Shown: in pieces, positions 7,721-29,992 of the stretch
Position numbering within the stretch: position 1 is the first letter of the stretch
Layout: each line of letters begins with the position of its first letter
Source: Candidatus Onthocola gallistercoris
GTDB lineage: Bacteria > Bacillota > Clostridia > Lachnospirales > Lachnospiraceae
Reading direction: 5' to 3'
Assembly: GCA_018715345.1 (NCBI GenBank)
Contig: DVLT01000055.1
Coordinates: forward strand, 20,836-84,835
Length of the DNA: 64,000 nucleotides
Position numbers and translations under genes: made by a program
Notes under the pieces: model-generated
Databases searched by the model: none
Told to the model about the DNA's origin: nothing
What the model saw: the letters and a program-made list of their open reading frames with translations, nothing else

Positions 7721-7880
7721 AATGTCTGCCCTTCTTTCTTTGCTTTCTTGGCCTGTGCAAGCGCACGGAACATCCTACGGCTGTCCGCGCACGGCTCGGT
7801 GCTTTCGCGAACATTATATCATACTGTGGGTGGGGTAGCAATGTGTGGGCTTTTTGAAGTCTTTGCTTTGTTCCACTACA

Positions 7881-14007: not shown

Positions 14008-14056
14008 ATAAAAGAGTATTTTACAGGCTTTTTACACCCGCAAAATACTCTTTTTT
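14008..14056. terminator. Bidirectional-type terminator hairpin between ferritin and hom
   Basis: AAAAGAGTATTTTacagg...cccgcAAAATACTCTTTTTT. Confidence 0.65.
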
Positions 14057-14631: not shown

Positions 14632-16143
14632 TCAGTTCTCCTGATGGACGCCGGCCATTAAAAGGCCCAGCTGATGTCTGGTCGCTTCTTTCTGGGGAAG
14701 GATATCCATAACCTGTCCTTCGTAGATCACAAGGATACGGTCGGACAATTCCATGATCTCCTCCAACTCTGTGGATACGAGGAGCACGGCTGCGCCTCGA
14801 TCCCTGGCTTCCACGATCTGATTTTGTATATACTTCGTGGCGCCGATATCCAGACCTCTGTCCGGATGAACAGCGATCAAAAGATCCGGCTCTCTTTCCA
14901 TCTCACGGGCAACGACGACTTTCTGTTGATTTCCTCCGGAAAGATTGCCTGCCAATTCGCTGACCGACGGGGTTTTTACATTATAAGTTTCGCAAAGCTG
15001 TTCATTCTTCGCTGTGATCTTCTTCCAGTCAAACAGACCATGTTTATTATATTCCGGTTTGCGGTATGTCATGAGCAAAAGGTTCTCATTAACGTTCATC
15101 TCCCGCACCATGCCATATTTCAAACGGTCCTCCGGAATATGGGATACACCCATACTAAGGATATCCCGCGGTTTGGAATGGGTCATATCCTTTCCTTTTA
15201 TCGTAAACTGTCCCGATGTGGCCGTCTCAAGGCCGGTCAGGCAGTGTACCAGCTCTGACTGGCCGTTGCCGTCCACGCCGCAGATACCCAGTATCTCGCC
15301 GCCGTACACATCAAATGAAATATTTTTAAGTACCTGAACTTTCTTTTTATTGACAAAGGAAAGGTCTTTCACATCCAGGATCTTATCTCCCCGGGGAATA
15401 TCCTTTTTCTCGATCGTCATATCCACCTGATGCCCCACCATCAGGGCAGCCAGTTCTTTTCGATCATGGATCTCGGATATCTTTGTGGTCTTGACCACCC
15501 GGCCCTGTCTGAGGACGGTACACCGGTCGCAGATCTCCATGATCTCCACCAGTTTATGGCTGATGAAGATGATGGTGTGCCCCTCTTTTGTCAGCCCCCG
15601 GATCATCTCGAACAGACCTTCCACCTCTTGGGGCGTCAGCACAGCCGTGGGCTCATCCAGAATGAGCAGATCCGCTTTTCTGTAAAGGGCTTTCAGGATT
15701 TCCAGACGCTGCTGCTGGCCTACAGACAACTGGCTTACCTTGGCCCACGGATCGATCTCCATGCCGTATTTCTTGGCCAGTTCGGAAAATTCCTTTGCTG
15801 CCGTCTTTAAGTCCAGCACAAACTTCTGTCCCTGGAGTCCCAGCACCACATTTTCAATGACCGACAATGCCGGTATGAGCATGAAATGCTGATGCACCAT
15901 TCCGATCCCTTTTGCGATGGAATCTTTCGGATCTTTTATATGGACCAACTCGCCGTTTAAGTAGATCTCGCCTTCACTCTGGGAATACATACCGTACAGG
16001 ATGTTCATCAATGTACTTTTTCCCGCGCCGTTTTCTCCAAGAAGGGCATGTACTTCCCCTTTCTCCACGCTCAGGTTTACATCCACGTTGGCAGCCACAT
16101 CACCGAAATATTTACTGATATGTTTCATTTCCAAAAATGCCAT
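14632..16143 (-). CDS. Nucleoside ABC transporter, duplicated ATP-binding protein (YufO/NupO-like)
   Basis: Two ABC cassettes: GENGAGKSTLMNILYG...LSVGQQQRLEILKAL and GVDGNGQSEL...LSGGNQQKVVVAREM; sits with BMP lipoprotein and two permeases. Confidence 0.9.
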   Translation of the reverse strand: MAFLEMKHISKYFGDVAANVDVNLSVEKGEVHALLGENGAGKSTLMNILYGMYSQSEGEIYLNGELVHIKDPKDSIAKGIGMVHQHFMLIPALSVIENVVLGLQGQKFVLDLKTAAKEFSELAKKYGMEIDPWAKVSQLSVGQQQRLEILKALYRKADLLILDEPTAVLTPQEVEGLFEMIRGLTKEGHTIIFISHKLVEIMEICDRCTVLRQGRVVKTTKISEIHDRKELAALMVGHQVDMTIEKKDIPRGDKILDVKDLSFVNKKKVQVLKNISFDVYGGEILGICGVDGNGQSELVHCLTGLETATSGQFTIKGKDMTHSKPRDILSMGVSHIPEDRLKYGMVREMNVNENLLLMTYRKPEYNKHGLFDWKKITAKNEQLCETYNVKTPSVSELAGNLSGGNQQKVVVAREMEREPDLLIAVHPDRGLDIGATKYIQNQIVEARDRGAAVLLVSTELEEIMELSDRILVIYEGQVMDILPQKEATRHQLGLLMAGVHQEN

Positions 16144-16155
16144 GGTGTATCCCTC

Positions 16156-17073
16156 CTAGTGCTTGTCATAAGGCTTTCCTGAGCTGGCAGCCTGATTGGA
16201 ACTTTTACGGTACAGACAGATCGCGATGATCGTAATGATATAAGGAAGCATCAGCCAGAACTGATACGGCACACTGACCGCGGTAGCCTGCATACGATAC
16301 TGAAGGGCGCTGGCTGCGCCAAAGATCAATGTTGCCGCCAGGACACCGCCAGGCATATAGTTGCCAAGTACAACGGCTGCCAAAGCGATAAAACCTCGGC
16401 CGGCGATCATATCCTCTGTAAAGGAACTTAACTGACCCATGGATACGTAAGCGCCTGCCAGTCCGGCCAGGGCGCCGCTGAAAAGGATCGTGCCATAACG
16501 GACACGGTATACGTTGATCCCCACCGTATCGCAGGCCTGGGGATTCTCACCCACAGAACGGATCTTCAATCCCAGACTGGTCTTCATGAGAATAAACCAC
16601 AAAACCGGAACAGCAATAAGCGCGATATAAACAGGGATAGCCTGATTAAAAACAGCCTCACCGATGATCGGGATCTTACTCAATCCCGGAATCGCTACCC
16701 GGTCAAATACAGCGATATTCTGGGAAGTGCCCACGCCAAAGATAACACGGTTCACCGTGACCGTCAGACCAGTGGCAAATGTATTGATGGCTGTACCGAT
16801 AACGTTCTGATCCGCTTTGATCGTTACAGCGAAGAAGGCAAATACAAGGGATACGATAAGGTTCACACCTATGGCCACCAATGCCCCCATGAGCGCGGAA
16901 CCGGTATAATAGGAACCGACAACACCCATCAGAGAACCGATCAGCATCATACCTTCCACACCGATATTGACGATACCGGCTCTGGAACAATAAACCAGGC
17001 CCAATGCGGCGATCAAAAGAGACGTTGCCATACGTATATCTGTTGATAAAAAGCTTGTGATCATGTCTATCAT
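16156..17073 (-). CDS. Nucleoside ABC transporter permease (YufQ/NupQ-like)
   Basis: 305-aa membrane protein; YCSRAGIVNIGVEGMMLIGS, VGENPQACDTVGINVYRVRY. Confidence 0.88.
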   Translation of the reverse strand: MIDMITSFLSTDIRMATSLLIAALGLVYCSRAGIVNIGVEGMMLIGSLMGVVGSYYTGSALMGALVAIGVNLIVSLVFAFFAVTIKADQNVIGTAINTFATGLTVTVNRVIFGVGTSQNIAVFDRVAIPGLSKIPIIGEAVFNQAIPVYIALIAVPVLWFILMKTSLGLKIRSVGENPQACDTVGINVYRVRYGTILFSGALAGLAGAYVSMGQLSSFTEDMIAGRGFIALAAVVLGNYMPGGVLAATLIFGAASALQYRMQATAVSVPYQFWLMLPYIITIIAICLYRKSSNQAASSGKPYDKH

Positions 17074-17079
17074 ATGTCC

Positions 17080-18162
17080 TTACGCCTCCTTCACATGTTT
17101 TTTCTTTCTGAATTTCTTACGGATACCTTCAAACCGGAACATGTTCCTTCCAACGACCAAAAGAATGATCAGGCCCTGGATCATATAGATCATGGCATTT
17201 GGAACCCTGGCCAGCATCTCCATGGTACTGGAACCATTGTTCAGCATACCAAACAGGAAGGCAGAAATGCCGATGCCGATGGGAGAATTGTTTCCAAGGA
17301 GGGCAACAGCCACACCGTCAAACCCTGTATTGCCGGCAAATGCCTGCATCAGACGGGTCTGGACCGAGAGGATCTCGATACAGCCGCCAAGGCCGGCCAT
17401 ACCGCCGGCGATCACCATGGCGATCATCTGGTTCTTACGGACATTCATACCCGCGTAGACACCGGCATATTTGTTCGCTCCCACGACCCGCACTTCATAA
17501 CCTCTACGGGTCCACCACAAAAATACATAGTAAAAGACAATAGCTAATATGGCAATGATCAGCCCTGCATGGAGTCTGGTGCCGTCCAGTAAGATCGGCA
17601 ATTCCGCGCTCTCCAGTATCCTGGCCGACTGGGGAAAACTGCTGGAAGCATTGTCCTTCATCGGTCCGGTTACCATATAACTGATCAACTGGATGGCGAT
17701 ATTGTTCAACATGATGGTGGTGATCAGCTCACTGGCGCCGAAACGGCTTTTTAAAAAGCTGACGATCCACCCCATCAAGCCGCCTCCCAGGAATCCGGCG
17801 ATCAATGTGAGCGGCAGATGGATGAAAATAGGAAGGCCGGCAAAATGCGTTCCCACAAAGGTGCCGAACAAAGCTCCGATATAGAGCTGTCCGGTGGCGC
17901 CCAGGTTGATGATGCCGCTTCGCATGGCCATGGCAAAGGAAAGGCCCATGAATACCAGCGGGATACCCTTAACAAAATTTTCACTGAAGGAAGCCACACT
18001 ACCGAAAGCTCCCTGGAACAAATACATATACGCATTTATCGGATCAAATCCCAGTGCCTGCATCATGAGGCCCGAGAGCAAAATGGCTACAACCACAGCG
18101 ATGACCGGATAATAGAGCGCTTCTAATAATTTTACAAATTTATTCTTCTTTGTTTTTTGCAC
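17080..18162 (-). CDS. Nucleoside ABC transporter permease (YufP/NupP-like)
   Basis: 360-aa membrane protein; GIINLGATGQLYIGAL, VVGANKYAGVYAGMNVRKN. Confidence 0.88.
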   Translation of the reverse strand: MQKTKKNKFVKLLEALYYPVIAVVVAILLSGLMMQALGFDPINAYMYLFQGAFGSVASFSENFVKGIPLVFMGLSFAMAMRSGIINLGATGQLYIGALFGTFVGTHFAGLPIFIHLPLTLIAGFLGGGLMGWIVSFLKSRFGASELITTIMLNNIAIQLISYMVTGPMKDNASSSFPQSARILESAELPILLDGTRLHAGLIIAILAIVFYYVFLWWTRRGYEVRVVGANKYAGVYAGMNVRKNQMIAMVIAGGMAGLGGCIEILSVQTRLMQAFAGNTGFDGVAVALLGNNSPIGIGISAFLFGMLNNGSSTMEMLARVPNAMIYMIQGLIILLVVGRNMFRFEGIRKKFRKKKHVKEA

Positions 18163-20065: not shown

Positions 20066-20094
20066 AGTATAACAACCGATTTTTTATCAGTCAA
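20066..20094 (-). promoter_or_regulatory. Sigma-A-like promoter of deaminase-BMP1-transporter operon
   Basis: Minus strand TTGACT-17 bp-TATACT. Confidence 0.7.
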
Positions 20095-20110
20095 TGTGTT
20101 TAAAAAAAAA

Positions 20111-20157
20111 ACAAACATTTCAACCAAACAGTTAAACTGTTTGGTCAAAATATTTGT
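20111..20157 (-). promoter_or_regulatory. 47-bp dyad element, copy 1
   Basis: Plus strand ACAAACATTTCAACCAAACAGTTAAACTGTTTGGTCAAAATATTTGT; 16 bp upstream of the -35; matches copy 2 at 21404-21450. Confidence 0.8.
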
Positions 20158-20255
20158 TTGGTCTTAAAAATATTTTTTGGTTCTCCTTATCTAAAACTTC
20201 TCACCGCATTTTTCGCCTTAGCAAGCGCCTTGTCCTATCTCCAAGTCGGCTTTGA

Positions 20256-21314
20256 TCAATCCAGTTCGATCTCTATCTCGCCGTTGACCAGCTTTTCATA
20301 GATATCCTGAATGGACTGTTTCTGCTCGTCTGTCAGCACTTCGTCCGCGCATGCCTGCCACGGTCCCAGCGTCACAACGCCCTGATCCGCGCCGTATTTC
20401 GGAACCGTATCGGTATCAGAAGTCAGTTCCCCATTGAGATACTGTTCAAATGCTGCCAGATAGGCAACAGATGTATCTTTATTCACAGCCAGCAGCATGG
20501 AATTGGGACCGCTCGTCTCCTGACCTTCACCGGTTCCAATGGAATACACACCGCTGTCCTCTGCCGCTTCAAGTACGCCCAGGCTGGCATTATTGGCCAT
20601 GGGTACCAGTACATCTGCGCCAAATTCCTCAAGCGCGATGGCTTGTTCTTTAGCTGCTGCTGTATCGGTCATACTTCCGGTCATGACCGTGCGTACTTCC
20701 GCATCCGGATTTACATAGGCCACGCCCTGTTCAAAACCTTTCGATCCGTTGATGATCGGGGTGATCTCCGTACCGCCCACAAAGCCGACAGAAGCATTCT
20801 TGGATGCTGTGGCCGCAATGACGCCCATCATGAATCCCTGCTCTTCGTCAGCCACCTGGACGGAGCATACATTGCCCTCATTGGCGCTGCCATTGATGAT
20901 GATAAACTGTGTGTCCGGATAATTGGGCGCATTTTCCAGAGTAACTTCCTGATAACTGTCCGAGCTTACAAATACCACATCAATGCCGGCTGTACTATAT
21001 GTACGGAACTGCTCGGGAATATCTGCCGGTTCCACATTCTCCTGATAAAACACTTCCGCTCCCTGCTCCTGGATCTTTTGTAATCCCTGATAGGCTGTGT
21101 AGTTCCAGCTCATATCGCTGATCGCTCCGCTTAAGATCAAACCGACTTTCACATCTTTCGCTTCTTTCGTGCCGCTGCCCGCATCGGCTGTGGACTCTGT
21201 CCCAGAGTCGGCTGTACTTGTGGTTTCACCGGCGGAATTGCCACAGGCTGCCAAAGACATCATCAGTACGGCTGCCAGCGCAAGCGCTGCAAGTTTACTT
21301 AAATTTCTTTTCAT
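20256..21314 (-). CDS. BMP-family (PnrA-like) nucleoside-binding lipoprotein, copy 2
   Basis: Closely similar to copy 1 throughout; lipobox MMSLAACGN; MKRNLSKL start with SD GAGGAGGAAGAGGAG (ORF opens at 21338). Confidence 0.9.
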   Translation of the reverse strand: MKRNLSKLAALALAAVLMMSLAACGNSAGETTSTADSGTESTADAGSGTKEAKDVKVGLILSGAISDMSWNYTAYQGLQKIQEQGAEVFYQENVEPADIPEQFRTYSTAGIDVVFVSSDSYQEVTLENAPNYPDTQFIIINGSANEGNVCSVQVADEEQGFMMGVIAATASKNASVGFVGGTEITPIINGSKGFEQGVAYVNPDAEVRTVMTGSMTDTAAAKEQAIALEEFGADVLVPMANNASLGVLEAAEDSGVYSIGTGEGQETSGPNSMLLAVNKDTSVAYLAAFEQYLNGELTSDTDTVPKYGADQGVVTLGPWQACADEVLTDEQKQSIQDIYEKLVNGEIEIELD

Positions 21315-21357
21315 TCTCCTCTTCCTCCTCGTAATCATGGATCTTGAAAGCCGTTTA

Positions 21358-21387
21358 AGTATACCAACATTGCTCAGACATCGTCAA
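21358..21387 (-). promoter_or_regulatory. Sigma-A-like promoter of BMP copy 2
   Basis: Minus strand TTGACG-18 bp-TATACT. Confidence 0.65.
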
Positions 21388-21403
21388 TGCTCTGCAATAA
21401 AAA

Positions 21404-21450
21404 ACAAATATTTCAACCAGGTGGTCAAACCATCTGGTCAAAATATTTGT
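21404..21450 (-). promoter_or_regulatory. 47-bp dyad element, copy 2
   Basis: Plus strand ACAAATATTTCAACCAGGTGGTCAAACCATCTGGTCAAAATATTTGT; 16 bp upstream of the -35. Confidence 0.8.
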
Positions 21451-21513: not shown

Positions 21514-22551
21514 TCATTGCGCTGAAGCCTTCCACTGTTCCACCCAAGCGTCAAATTCTTTCAGATGATGCTGCCCGCGGATGGAATAAAGCAAACTATT
21601 GCGTTCCAGCTCAATGATATCGTCCTCTGTCAGATTCAACGCGTCGGCTGTCTTTAACATGGTCTCGATCAGATCTCCCACATAGGGCGGATCATCCGAG
21701 TTGATAGAACACGGAATCCCCTGTTCCATCAAGAACTTCAGAGGATGCTCCTCAAGGGTCGGGAACACATGAGGACAGTTGCTCGTGGGGCAAGTGGTCA
21801 AAAGGATCTTCTTTTCTGCCAGATGCTTCATCAACGCTTCATCCCGGATGGACAATACACCGTGCTCGATACGCACACAACCCATCTTATCCACCGCATC
21901 CCATACATTCTGGACAGCCATATCGCCGGCATGGGGATCTTCTCCGGCATGGGCGCTTAAATACAGCCCCATTTCTTTTGCCAAGTCATAAGCTGCCTTA
22001 TGCTTGATGCAGGGGTGGCCGTTCTCTTCACAATCCATACCGATGGCCGGAATGATATCTTTGTAAGGTTCAATATCCTGGATGAACTTCAAGCTCATCT
22101 CCGATGACAGGGATCGATCGATGCCTGCTATAAAGACAATGTCAACCCCCAGTTCTTTCATCGCTTTCTGCCTACCCGCCTCATATCCGTTCACCACCGT
22201 TTCCAGAGAAATGCCCCGGACTTCATTCAACGGATAATCCAGCAGATACTCGGTATAGATAATATTCTGGTCTTTTGCCTGTTTTGCGAGGGCATAAAGC
22301 ACTTCCGCATAATCTTCTTCCGTCTGGCATACGGAATTGACCAGACGGTCGCTCTCCATAAACGCATCCAGACTGGCAAAAGGCTTCCTTAAGTGGGCAG
22401 CCAGTTCTTCCGCCGTCTCCCACGGCAGATCCACACCGTTCTTTTTCGCCAGGCGGATGGCCACTTCCGGCGGAATGGAACCTTCGATATGGATGTGATT
22501 CTCCCCCTTCGGGATCTCGTAAATGAGTTTTTTCATACGTTCTGTCAGCAT
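21514..22551 (-). CDS. add: Adenosine deaminase family protein
   Basis: ENHIHIEGSIPPE, SAHAGE, RIEHGV, CPTSN, SINSDDPP motifs. Confidence 0.92.
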   Translation of the reverse strand: MLTERMKKLIYEIPKGENHIHIEGSIPPEVAIRLAKKNGVDLPWETAEELAAHLRKPFASLDAFMESDRLVNSVCQTEEDYAEVLYALAKQAKDQNIIYTEYLLDYPLNEVRGISLETVVNGYEAGRQKAMKELGVDIVFIAGIDRSLSSEMSLKFIQDIEPYKDIIPAIGMDCEENGHPCIKHKAAYDLAKEMGLYLSAHAGEDPHAGDMAVQNVWDAVDKMGCVRIEHGVLSIRDEALMKHLAEKKILLTTCPTSNCPHVFPTLEEHPLKFLMEQGIPCSINSDDPPYVGDLIETMLKTADALNLTEDDIIELERNSLLYSIRGQHHLKEFDAWVEQWKASAQ

Positions 22552-22666: not shown

Positions 22667-24124
22667 TTAAAGCAAGGTTTCCTCCGGTATATCTTCATCC
22701 TTTGTAAAATCCGGGTGGATGATCCGGGCATAATAATGTTTCTCCCGAAACGCATCCGTCAGATCGGTCATACATTTCTCACACCACTCTGCCGCTTTTG
22801 CCACATAACGCTCTTCATCGATCTGTGTAAATTCTCCATTTCTCCGGATAAACTGTCCATCCACCATGGTCTCTGCTGTCGTTGTCCCTGCACAATTTCT
22901 TGTAAACAGGAAATAAAGCAGTTCCGGCTGTACATCCAGCAATGCGGTGCACATGGGCAGCATATGAGACGCTTTTTTCAGATCAATGGTGATGATATCC
23001 GCCCGTTTGCCCACTTCCAGACTGCCCGTCTGCTTTTCCAGGCCATAGGCCCGGGCCGTCCCCAGGGTGGCCGCCTTGAACGGTTCCCAGTAATCCAAAC
23101 CTTTTAAAGGTCTTGGCATGATATTATGTATCATCAGCATCAGCTTCATGGAAGTCATCACATCCAAGGAGCCATAGTCGCATCCCAATCCCACATTGAC
23201 GCCAGCCTCCAGCATCTTGGGGATATAGGCACAATTACCGCAGTTGGTACCATTGATATCCGGATTATGTATGACAGATGCGCCGGTCTCTGCCAACCGT
23301 TCGATCTCCTCCGGCTGCAGCATGGAACCATGGAAAAGCACGCTCCGATCCGTCACGATCCCCAGGTTCATATAATGCTCAAAAGCTCCTTCCGGCCACA
23401 GGGCATCGCCCCGGCGGACCGCATCGGCAAACTCCCAGAAATGGAGCACATATTTCACGTCATAGTCCTCCGCGATCTGATAGGCTTCTGTCATCAGCCT
23501 TTCTGTGCAATCCCAAAGATCATGGATATGGACAGCCACAGACATCCTCTCCTCCGGCCGGTGATAATCTTTGATGCACCGCTCTGCCTGAGCCAGATAC
23601 TGTTTCCAGTTTAAAGGTTCCGAATCGAGCCGGAAAGACGTGGCCATCTGGGGCGCCAGTATGCCCCGGATGCCTGCGTCATCCATGGCCCGGTAGGCAG
23701 TGTCCGGCAGGATCGTGCTGTTTTCGATCGTGGTGGCGCCATGTTTCACATCATTGATGATGGATGCCATGGATATATCATATATACTTTCTTCTGTCAG
23801 CCATCCATAAGGATTATGGATGGTGGTCAGCATATGTTTAGCAATATTATCGTAATCCAGACGAAAGGCCCGCGCCATATTCATATGGGTGTTGCACAGA
23901 TGATTATGCCCATCCATCAGGCCAGGCATAACGATCTTATCACTGCAGTCCACCACTTCCGTATCCGGTCCGGATCCATAACGTTTTTCGATCGCTTCTG
24001 CCGGACCGATATCCAGGATCTTTTTCCCAGAGACCACGATGGAACGTCCTGTATGGATGCCGTTCTTATCCGGAGTCTCGAAAGAAAACCGGCAATTCTT
24101 AAAAATAATGTTCTTCACTTTCAT
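22667..24124 (-). CDS. Amidohydrolase/chlorohydrolase-family deaminase (SsnA/guanine deaminase-like)
   Basis: MPGLMDGHNHLCN, LHFWEFAD, VLFHGS, GLGCDYGSLD, GKRADIITIDL motifs. Confidence 0.82.
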   Translation of the reverse strand: MKVKNIIFKNCRFSFETPDKNGIHTGRSIVVSGKKILDIGPAEAIEKRYGSGPDTEVVDCSDKIVMPGLMDGHNHLCNTHMNMARAFRLDYDNIAKHMLTTIHNPYGWLTEESIYDISMASIINDVKHGATTIENSTILPDTAYRAMDDAGIRGILAPQMATSFRLDSEPLNWKQYLAQAERCIKDYHRPEERMSVAVHIHDLWDCTERLMTEAYQIAEDYDVKYVLHFWEFADAVRRGDALWPEGAFEHYMNLGIVTDRSVLFHGSMLQPEEIERLAETGASVIHNPDINGTNCGNCAYIPKMLEAGVNVGLGCDYGSLDVMTSMKLMLMIHNIMPRPLKGLDYWEPFKAATLGTARAYGLEKQTGSLEVGKRADIITIDLKKASHMLPMCTALLDVQPELLYFLFTRNCAGTTTAETMVDGQFIRRNGEFTQIDEERYVAKAAEWCEKCMTDLTDAFREKHYYARIIHPDFTKDEDIPEETLL

Positions 24125-29777: not shown

Positions 29778-29887
29778 CGTTCCTCCTGATAATAAGTATA
29801 CAAGAAGCTCTCTTTTTCAACAAGCCATTTCTTTAAACTTTGCCTGTCCGCGAAAATGGCAGACAAAGGAATTTTTCCCGCGCAATG

Positions 29888-29992
29888 AAAAAAGGACAGC
29901 TATCCGATCCGCTGTCCTTTTTCCGGAGAAGGTATTTTTTGTTTCTTATGGGGTGTAACAAAAAACTATATAATGTATTGGGGGGGTTTACG
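29888..29992 (-). ncRNA. Candidate small RNA (C-rich) ending in an intrinsic terminator
   Basis: Minus-strand TATAAT at 29999-30004, then CCCCCCC single-stranded run, 9-bp hairpin with ACACCCC loop, and terminator AAAAAGGACAGC...GCTGTCCTTTTTT; between ftsH and GH13. Confidence 0.35.

Follow-up and report, generated by a model that had tools for sequence, protein, structure and literature searches.

Two matching palindromes in a purine uptake and deamination island are probably Rho-independent terminators duplicated with a promoter and a BMP gene

Introduction

In the textbook Rho-independent terminator, a GC-rich stem adjoins the U-tract. Control of nucleoside uptake has been described in Bacillus thuringiensis, where NupR, a regulator of the GntR/HutC type, controls a BMP-type nucleoside transporter; the nup site there spans 20 bp and is of GntR type, for example AAAGGTCAGACATCTTACGT (PMC9430930). 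The NupR paper was the sole relevant find when we looked in the literature for dual terminator-operator or PnrA/GntR systems.

The 64-kb stretch of DNA analyzed here (the window) contains an island of purine uptake and deamination genes with two 47-bp dyads, each just upstream of a promoter. The original prediction took the dyads for a common site, operator or activator, at which a purine-responsive regulator acts; as an alternative, it offered that each serves the upstream gene as an intrinsic terminator. Here we compare the dyads with each other, with their counterparts in a sister species and with the terminators of neighbouring genes.

Results

The two dyads lie on the minus strand at 20111..20157 (dyad 1) and 21404..21450 (dyad 2). 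They are indeed the ungapped look-alikes that had been predicted, identical at 38 of 47 positions, with 40/47 self-complementary positions in dyad 1 and 38/47 in dyad 2; judging from dinucleotide shuffles, no dyad match is expected by chance. The surrounding genes, also on the minus strand, make up a purine set of BMP lipoproteins, an ABC transporter, deaminases and an amidohydrolase. Upstream of dyad 2 are an amidohydrolase of a purine deaminase-like family (22667..24124) and an adenosine deaminase-like gene (21514..22550). BMP2 (20256..21314), a paralogue of BMP1, lies between the dyads, and dyad 1 precedes an operon encoding a cytidine deaminase-like nucleoside/base deaminase (PF00383; 19462..20022), the PnrA-like substrate-binding lipoprotein BMP1 (PF02608; 18314..19390) and an ABC transporter of two permeases and an ATPase (14632..18162).

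The promoters proposed for the two units, minus-strand TTGAC(T/G)-17/18-TATACT after each dyad, were both confirmed. That of the deaminase-BMP1-transporter operon (TTGACT-17-TATACT; 20066..20094, minus strand) has the extended -10 element TGTTATACT and is conserved in the sister species, while that of BMP2 (TTGACG-18-TATACT; 21358..21387, minus strand) has the extended -10 element TGGTATACT. The gap between dyad and -35 box is exactly 16 nt at both promoters, and is 16 bp in all four copies from the two species. Dyad 1 is 88 nt from the deaminase start codon (20022) and dyad 2 about 89 nt from the likely BMP2 start (~21314), which bears out the distances first given.

On the coding strand, the dyads have the anatomy of terminators. 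The minus-strand RNA forms a hairpin of 22 pairs at dyad 1 and of 21 pairs, with one mismatch, at dyad 2, including two conserved G-U pairs, and T's follow directly on the 3' side: a run of nine at dyad 1 (20102..20110, minus strand) and the T-rich tract TTTTTATT at dyad 2 (21396..21403, minus strand). T-rich octamers occupy 3% of intergenic positions, and the tracts after the dyads are kept in both species. Fold energies are -25.4 kcal/mol for dyad 1 with its T-tract and -23.5 kcal/mol for dyad 2. We scored the 64-kb window for terminators by the formula of d'Aubenton Carafa (d score). Dyad 1 (d = 49.0) was the best site on the minus strand and dyad 2 (d = 28.7) the eighth. On the real minus strand 16 sites scored above d = 20, vs. 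none when the sequence was reversed, and neither dyad had a plus-strand terminator score. Dyad 1 begins 100 nt past the BMP2 stop codon. Dyad 2 begins about 64 nt past that of the adenosine deaminase gene, a distance of about 30 nt in the sister species. From each of these stop codons to the promoter that follows, no terminator-like hairpin other than the dyad is present. We thus read dyad 1 as the probable intrinsic terminator of BMP2 and dyad 2 as that of the adenosine deaminase gene. An asymmetry in G-U wobble between the strands also points to the coding-strand RNA (2 unpaired of 88, vs. 10), but comes from too few independent events to serve as proof. At the gathering threshold, Rfam gave no match in the window, and the sub-threshold matches at the dyads were chance-like microRNA and sRNA hairpins; no purine aptamer model matched, in agreement with the earlier failure to recognize a purine riboswitch.

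The stems do depart from the textbook arrangement: their outer 10 pairs are AT-rich and the GC pairs lie in the core. Another long AT-rich hairpin (14010-14054, minus strand; 19 pairs) is found after a ferritin gene and followed at a distance of 37 bp by a promoter-like TAGACA-16-TATACT, indicating that long-stem terminators beside promoters also occur elsewhere in the window.

The two hairpins have not diverged evenly. The outer arms, ACAAATATTTTGACCA and TGGTTGAAATATTTGT, are nearly invariant, differing at 1 of 32 positions between the copies of this genome, vs. 8 of 15 in the inner part (Fisher p=1.5e-4). The inner part covaries: the inner-arm sequences differ between dyads with pairing mostly retained, as had been claimed, and a further, compensatory change is seen in the sister species (CAG/CTG to CGG/CCG).

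To follow the dyads across species, we turned to a sister species of the same genus (G004; also CALWEE010000003.1, uncultured Lachnospiraceae bacterium), in which the genes are in the same order and both dyads recur at the same places. Dyad 1 differs from its orthologue at 4/47 positions (91% identical) and dyad 2 at 1/47 (98%; 46/47 conserved), vs. 42-56% of four-fold degenerate sites in the island genes. As a control, we took the eight neighbouring terminators that could be placed in the stretch shared with the sister species. Two are lost there, and the stems of the other six are 77-100% identical (23/25, 28/29, 30/30, 22/25, 24/31 and 30/36). Since these terminators are as well conserved, the conservation of the dyads is ordinary and needs no extra role; the alignment of orthologous intergenic regions suggested with the original prediction thus recovers both dyads, conserved no more than their neighbours. 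We accordingly dropped interspecies conservation as support for an operator. Faster change on the loop side is also seen in some of the neighbouring terminators, in a small sample.

No third copy of the dyad was found in the genome, either with a relaxed pattern or with a looser outer-arm pattern, both of which returned the same two sites; the genome-wide motif search proposed earlier thus yields the two dyads and no further site. Half-sites with 0-1 mismatches in this genome all fall inside the two dyads, with no excess elsewhere. When 84,980 species genomes were scanned with a pattern, 47 loci matched; only the sites of the sister species have a self-complementary interior, the others being chance matches.

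Homologue searches, run at family, order and class level for the deaminase and at family level for BMP2, added only two further close homologues, in G275 (deaminase 75% identical) and G830 (70%). Both operons have an adjacent GntR-type regulator gene and are without the dyad: it is absent upstream of the G275 deaminase operon in a scan allowing up to 9 mismatches over the stretches examined, and absent at the G830 operon by the genome-collection pattern scan and gene order. Nor was a dyad present upstream of the other deaminase homologues that we fetched. The G275 GntR has weak matches in our genome and no good counterpart there. In G275, the GntR/UTRA regulator is the last gene of the deaminase-BMP operon, a palindrome, ATAGGTAGTACCTAT, lies just past the -10 box, and a Clostridiales-1 RNA (RF01699; L010 2099-2251, minus strand) is found directly upstream of the operon.

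The two upstream regions in the island are similar over ~96 bp (75%), a span that ends at the outer edge of the dyad on one side and takes in the -10 box on the other. The DNA between dyad and gene had been described as diverged; given this homology, the part between dyad and promoter is at least partly related. BMP1 shares 75% identity with BMP2, and each is 86-87% identical to its orthologue and 53-60% to the G275 BMP. Since the two are closer to each other than to the G275 protein and both occur in the two species, the duplication is lineage-specific and pre-dates the species split. The paralogous dyads differ at 8-9 of 47 positions, about 3 times the mean of the orthologous differences, vs. 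about 2 times for the proteins. These differences fit the duplication history, so that no extra force is needed to explain the likeness of the copies.

Two other elements were noticed. One is a dispersed element of ~130-150 nt, made up of a promoter-like TATGATATAATGT, GAAAGCACCGAGCCGTGCG, a variable long hairpin, CATAGGGCGAATGCCCGTGAGCGAG and a closing GCACGGC. Full copies occur in this genome (L093, L097, L099, L101, L102) and in the sister species (L094, L098), with a degenerate copy in the window (7788-7842, minus strand). Its 5' core has nine copies in this genome and three in the sister species, and is absent from G275 and from three further species of the genus. Changes on both sides affect 21 of 42 consensus pairs (7 sequences), and Rfam gave no match. 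The element, which is unrelated to the dyads, has the look of a structured RNA or leader not described so far; it seems more interesting than they are and merits its own study. The other is a segment of ~100 bp between ftsH-like and amylase-like genes (about 29883-29986, minus strand), identical in the two species, with a promoter-like TATAAT upstream, a terminator at 29891-29920 and no Rfam match; it is a candidate small RNA.

Discussion

Three features count against reading the dyads as plain terminators: the AT-rich base of the stem, the arm-biased divergence and the fixed 16-bp spacing. The last two could be accommodated by a double role, in which the dyads would terminate the upstream transcript and a putative protein, candidately a purine-responsive regulator, would bind the outer arms and control the promoter 16 bp downstream. 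The near-invariance of these arms beside a covarying inner part favours sequence reading over pairing alone, and both promoters drive purine uptake genes. However, one duplication could pass on spacing and sequence alike, the loop side of other local terminators also changes faster, and neither a third site nor an excess of half-sites exists beyond the two dyads. We consider a double role unlikely; if true, it would be a compact means of tying the end of one transcript to the control of the operon that follows.

Less probable still is that the dyads are purely the operator or activator site of a purine-responsive regulator, the T-tract being a mere AT-rich promoter element. At both purine promoters the dyad centre does lie ~40 bp ahead of the -35 box, and interspecies conservation is strong when set against four-fold degenerate sites, but neighbouring terminators match it, and the polarity of the hairpins and their T-tracts suit the upstream genes. 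A regulon could consist of just two sites. Among the predicted ORFs of the island, we saw no regulator gene in either species (judged partly by reading the ORFs), and the G275 and G830 operons, which do have a GntR gene beside them, have no dyad. The shared purine operator of the original prediction thus lacks support, and the hairpin, T-tract, polarity, d scores and conservation control speak rather for its alternative, intrinsic termination of the gene before each dyad. Insertion of a mobile palindromic repeat (MITE or REP-like) at two places would account for two near-identical palindromes whose outer-flank DNA is unrelated, but there are just two genomic copies, whose places are the same in the sister species, and the sister alone among the 84,980 other species genomes has copies with a palindromic loop. 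Copy number refutes this idea for practical purposes, and we regard it as very improbable.

Taking as observed the anatomy, polarity, copy number and conservation of the dyads and the paralogy of the BMP genes, we infer, with a probability of roughly three in four, that the dyads are Rho-independent terminators that mark transcript ends and were duplicated once, together with promoter and BMP gene. Dyad 2 would end the adenosine deaminase transcript and dyad 1 the BMP2 transcript, and a new promoter just past each terminator would start the next unit. The duplication of terminator, promoter and BMP gene as one block would have taken place in this lineage before the two species separated, after which the hairpins would have drifted at the slow rate of other local terminators, the loop side most. 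The case calls for caution, as a duplicated terminator-promoter block mimics a regulon, with matching palindromes at equal promoter distances; it was the use of neighbouring terminators as a yardstick that exposed the conservation of the dyads as ordinary.

Compared with known systems, the dyads share with purine riboswitches (Rfam) the presence of RNA hairpins near purine genes, but sit upstream of the promoter. What links the NupR system to the present case is its subject, the regulation of an operon for a nucleoside-binding protein and an ABC transporter (PMC9430930); the nup site, however, is by eye unlike the 47-bp dyad, and a NupR-type regulator gene is absent from the island. The dyads have in common with the Rho-independent terminators of Firmicutes a hairpin past the stop codon, an immediate T-tract, coding-strand polarity and compensatory change, and differ from them in stems that are longer than usual (21-22 pairs), an AT-rich base and an arm sequence that is common to two copies through duplication.
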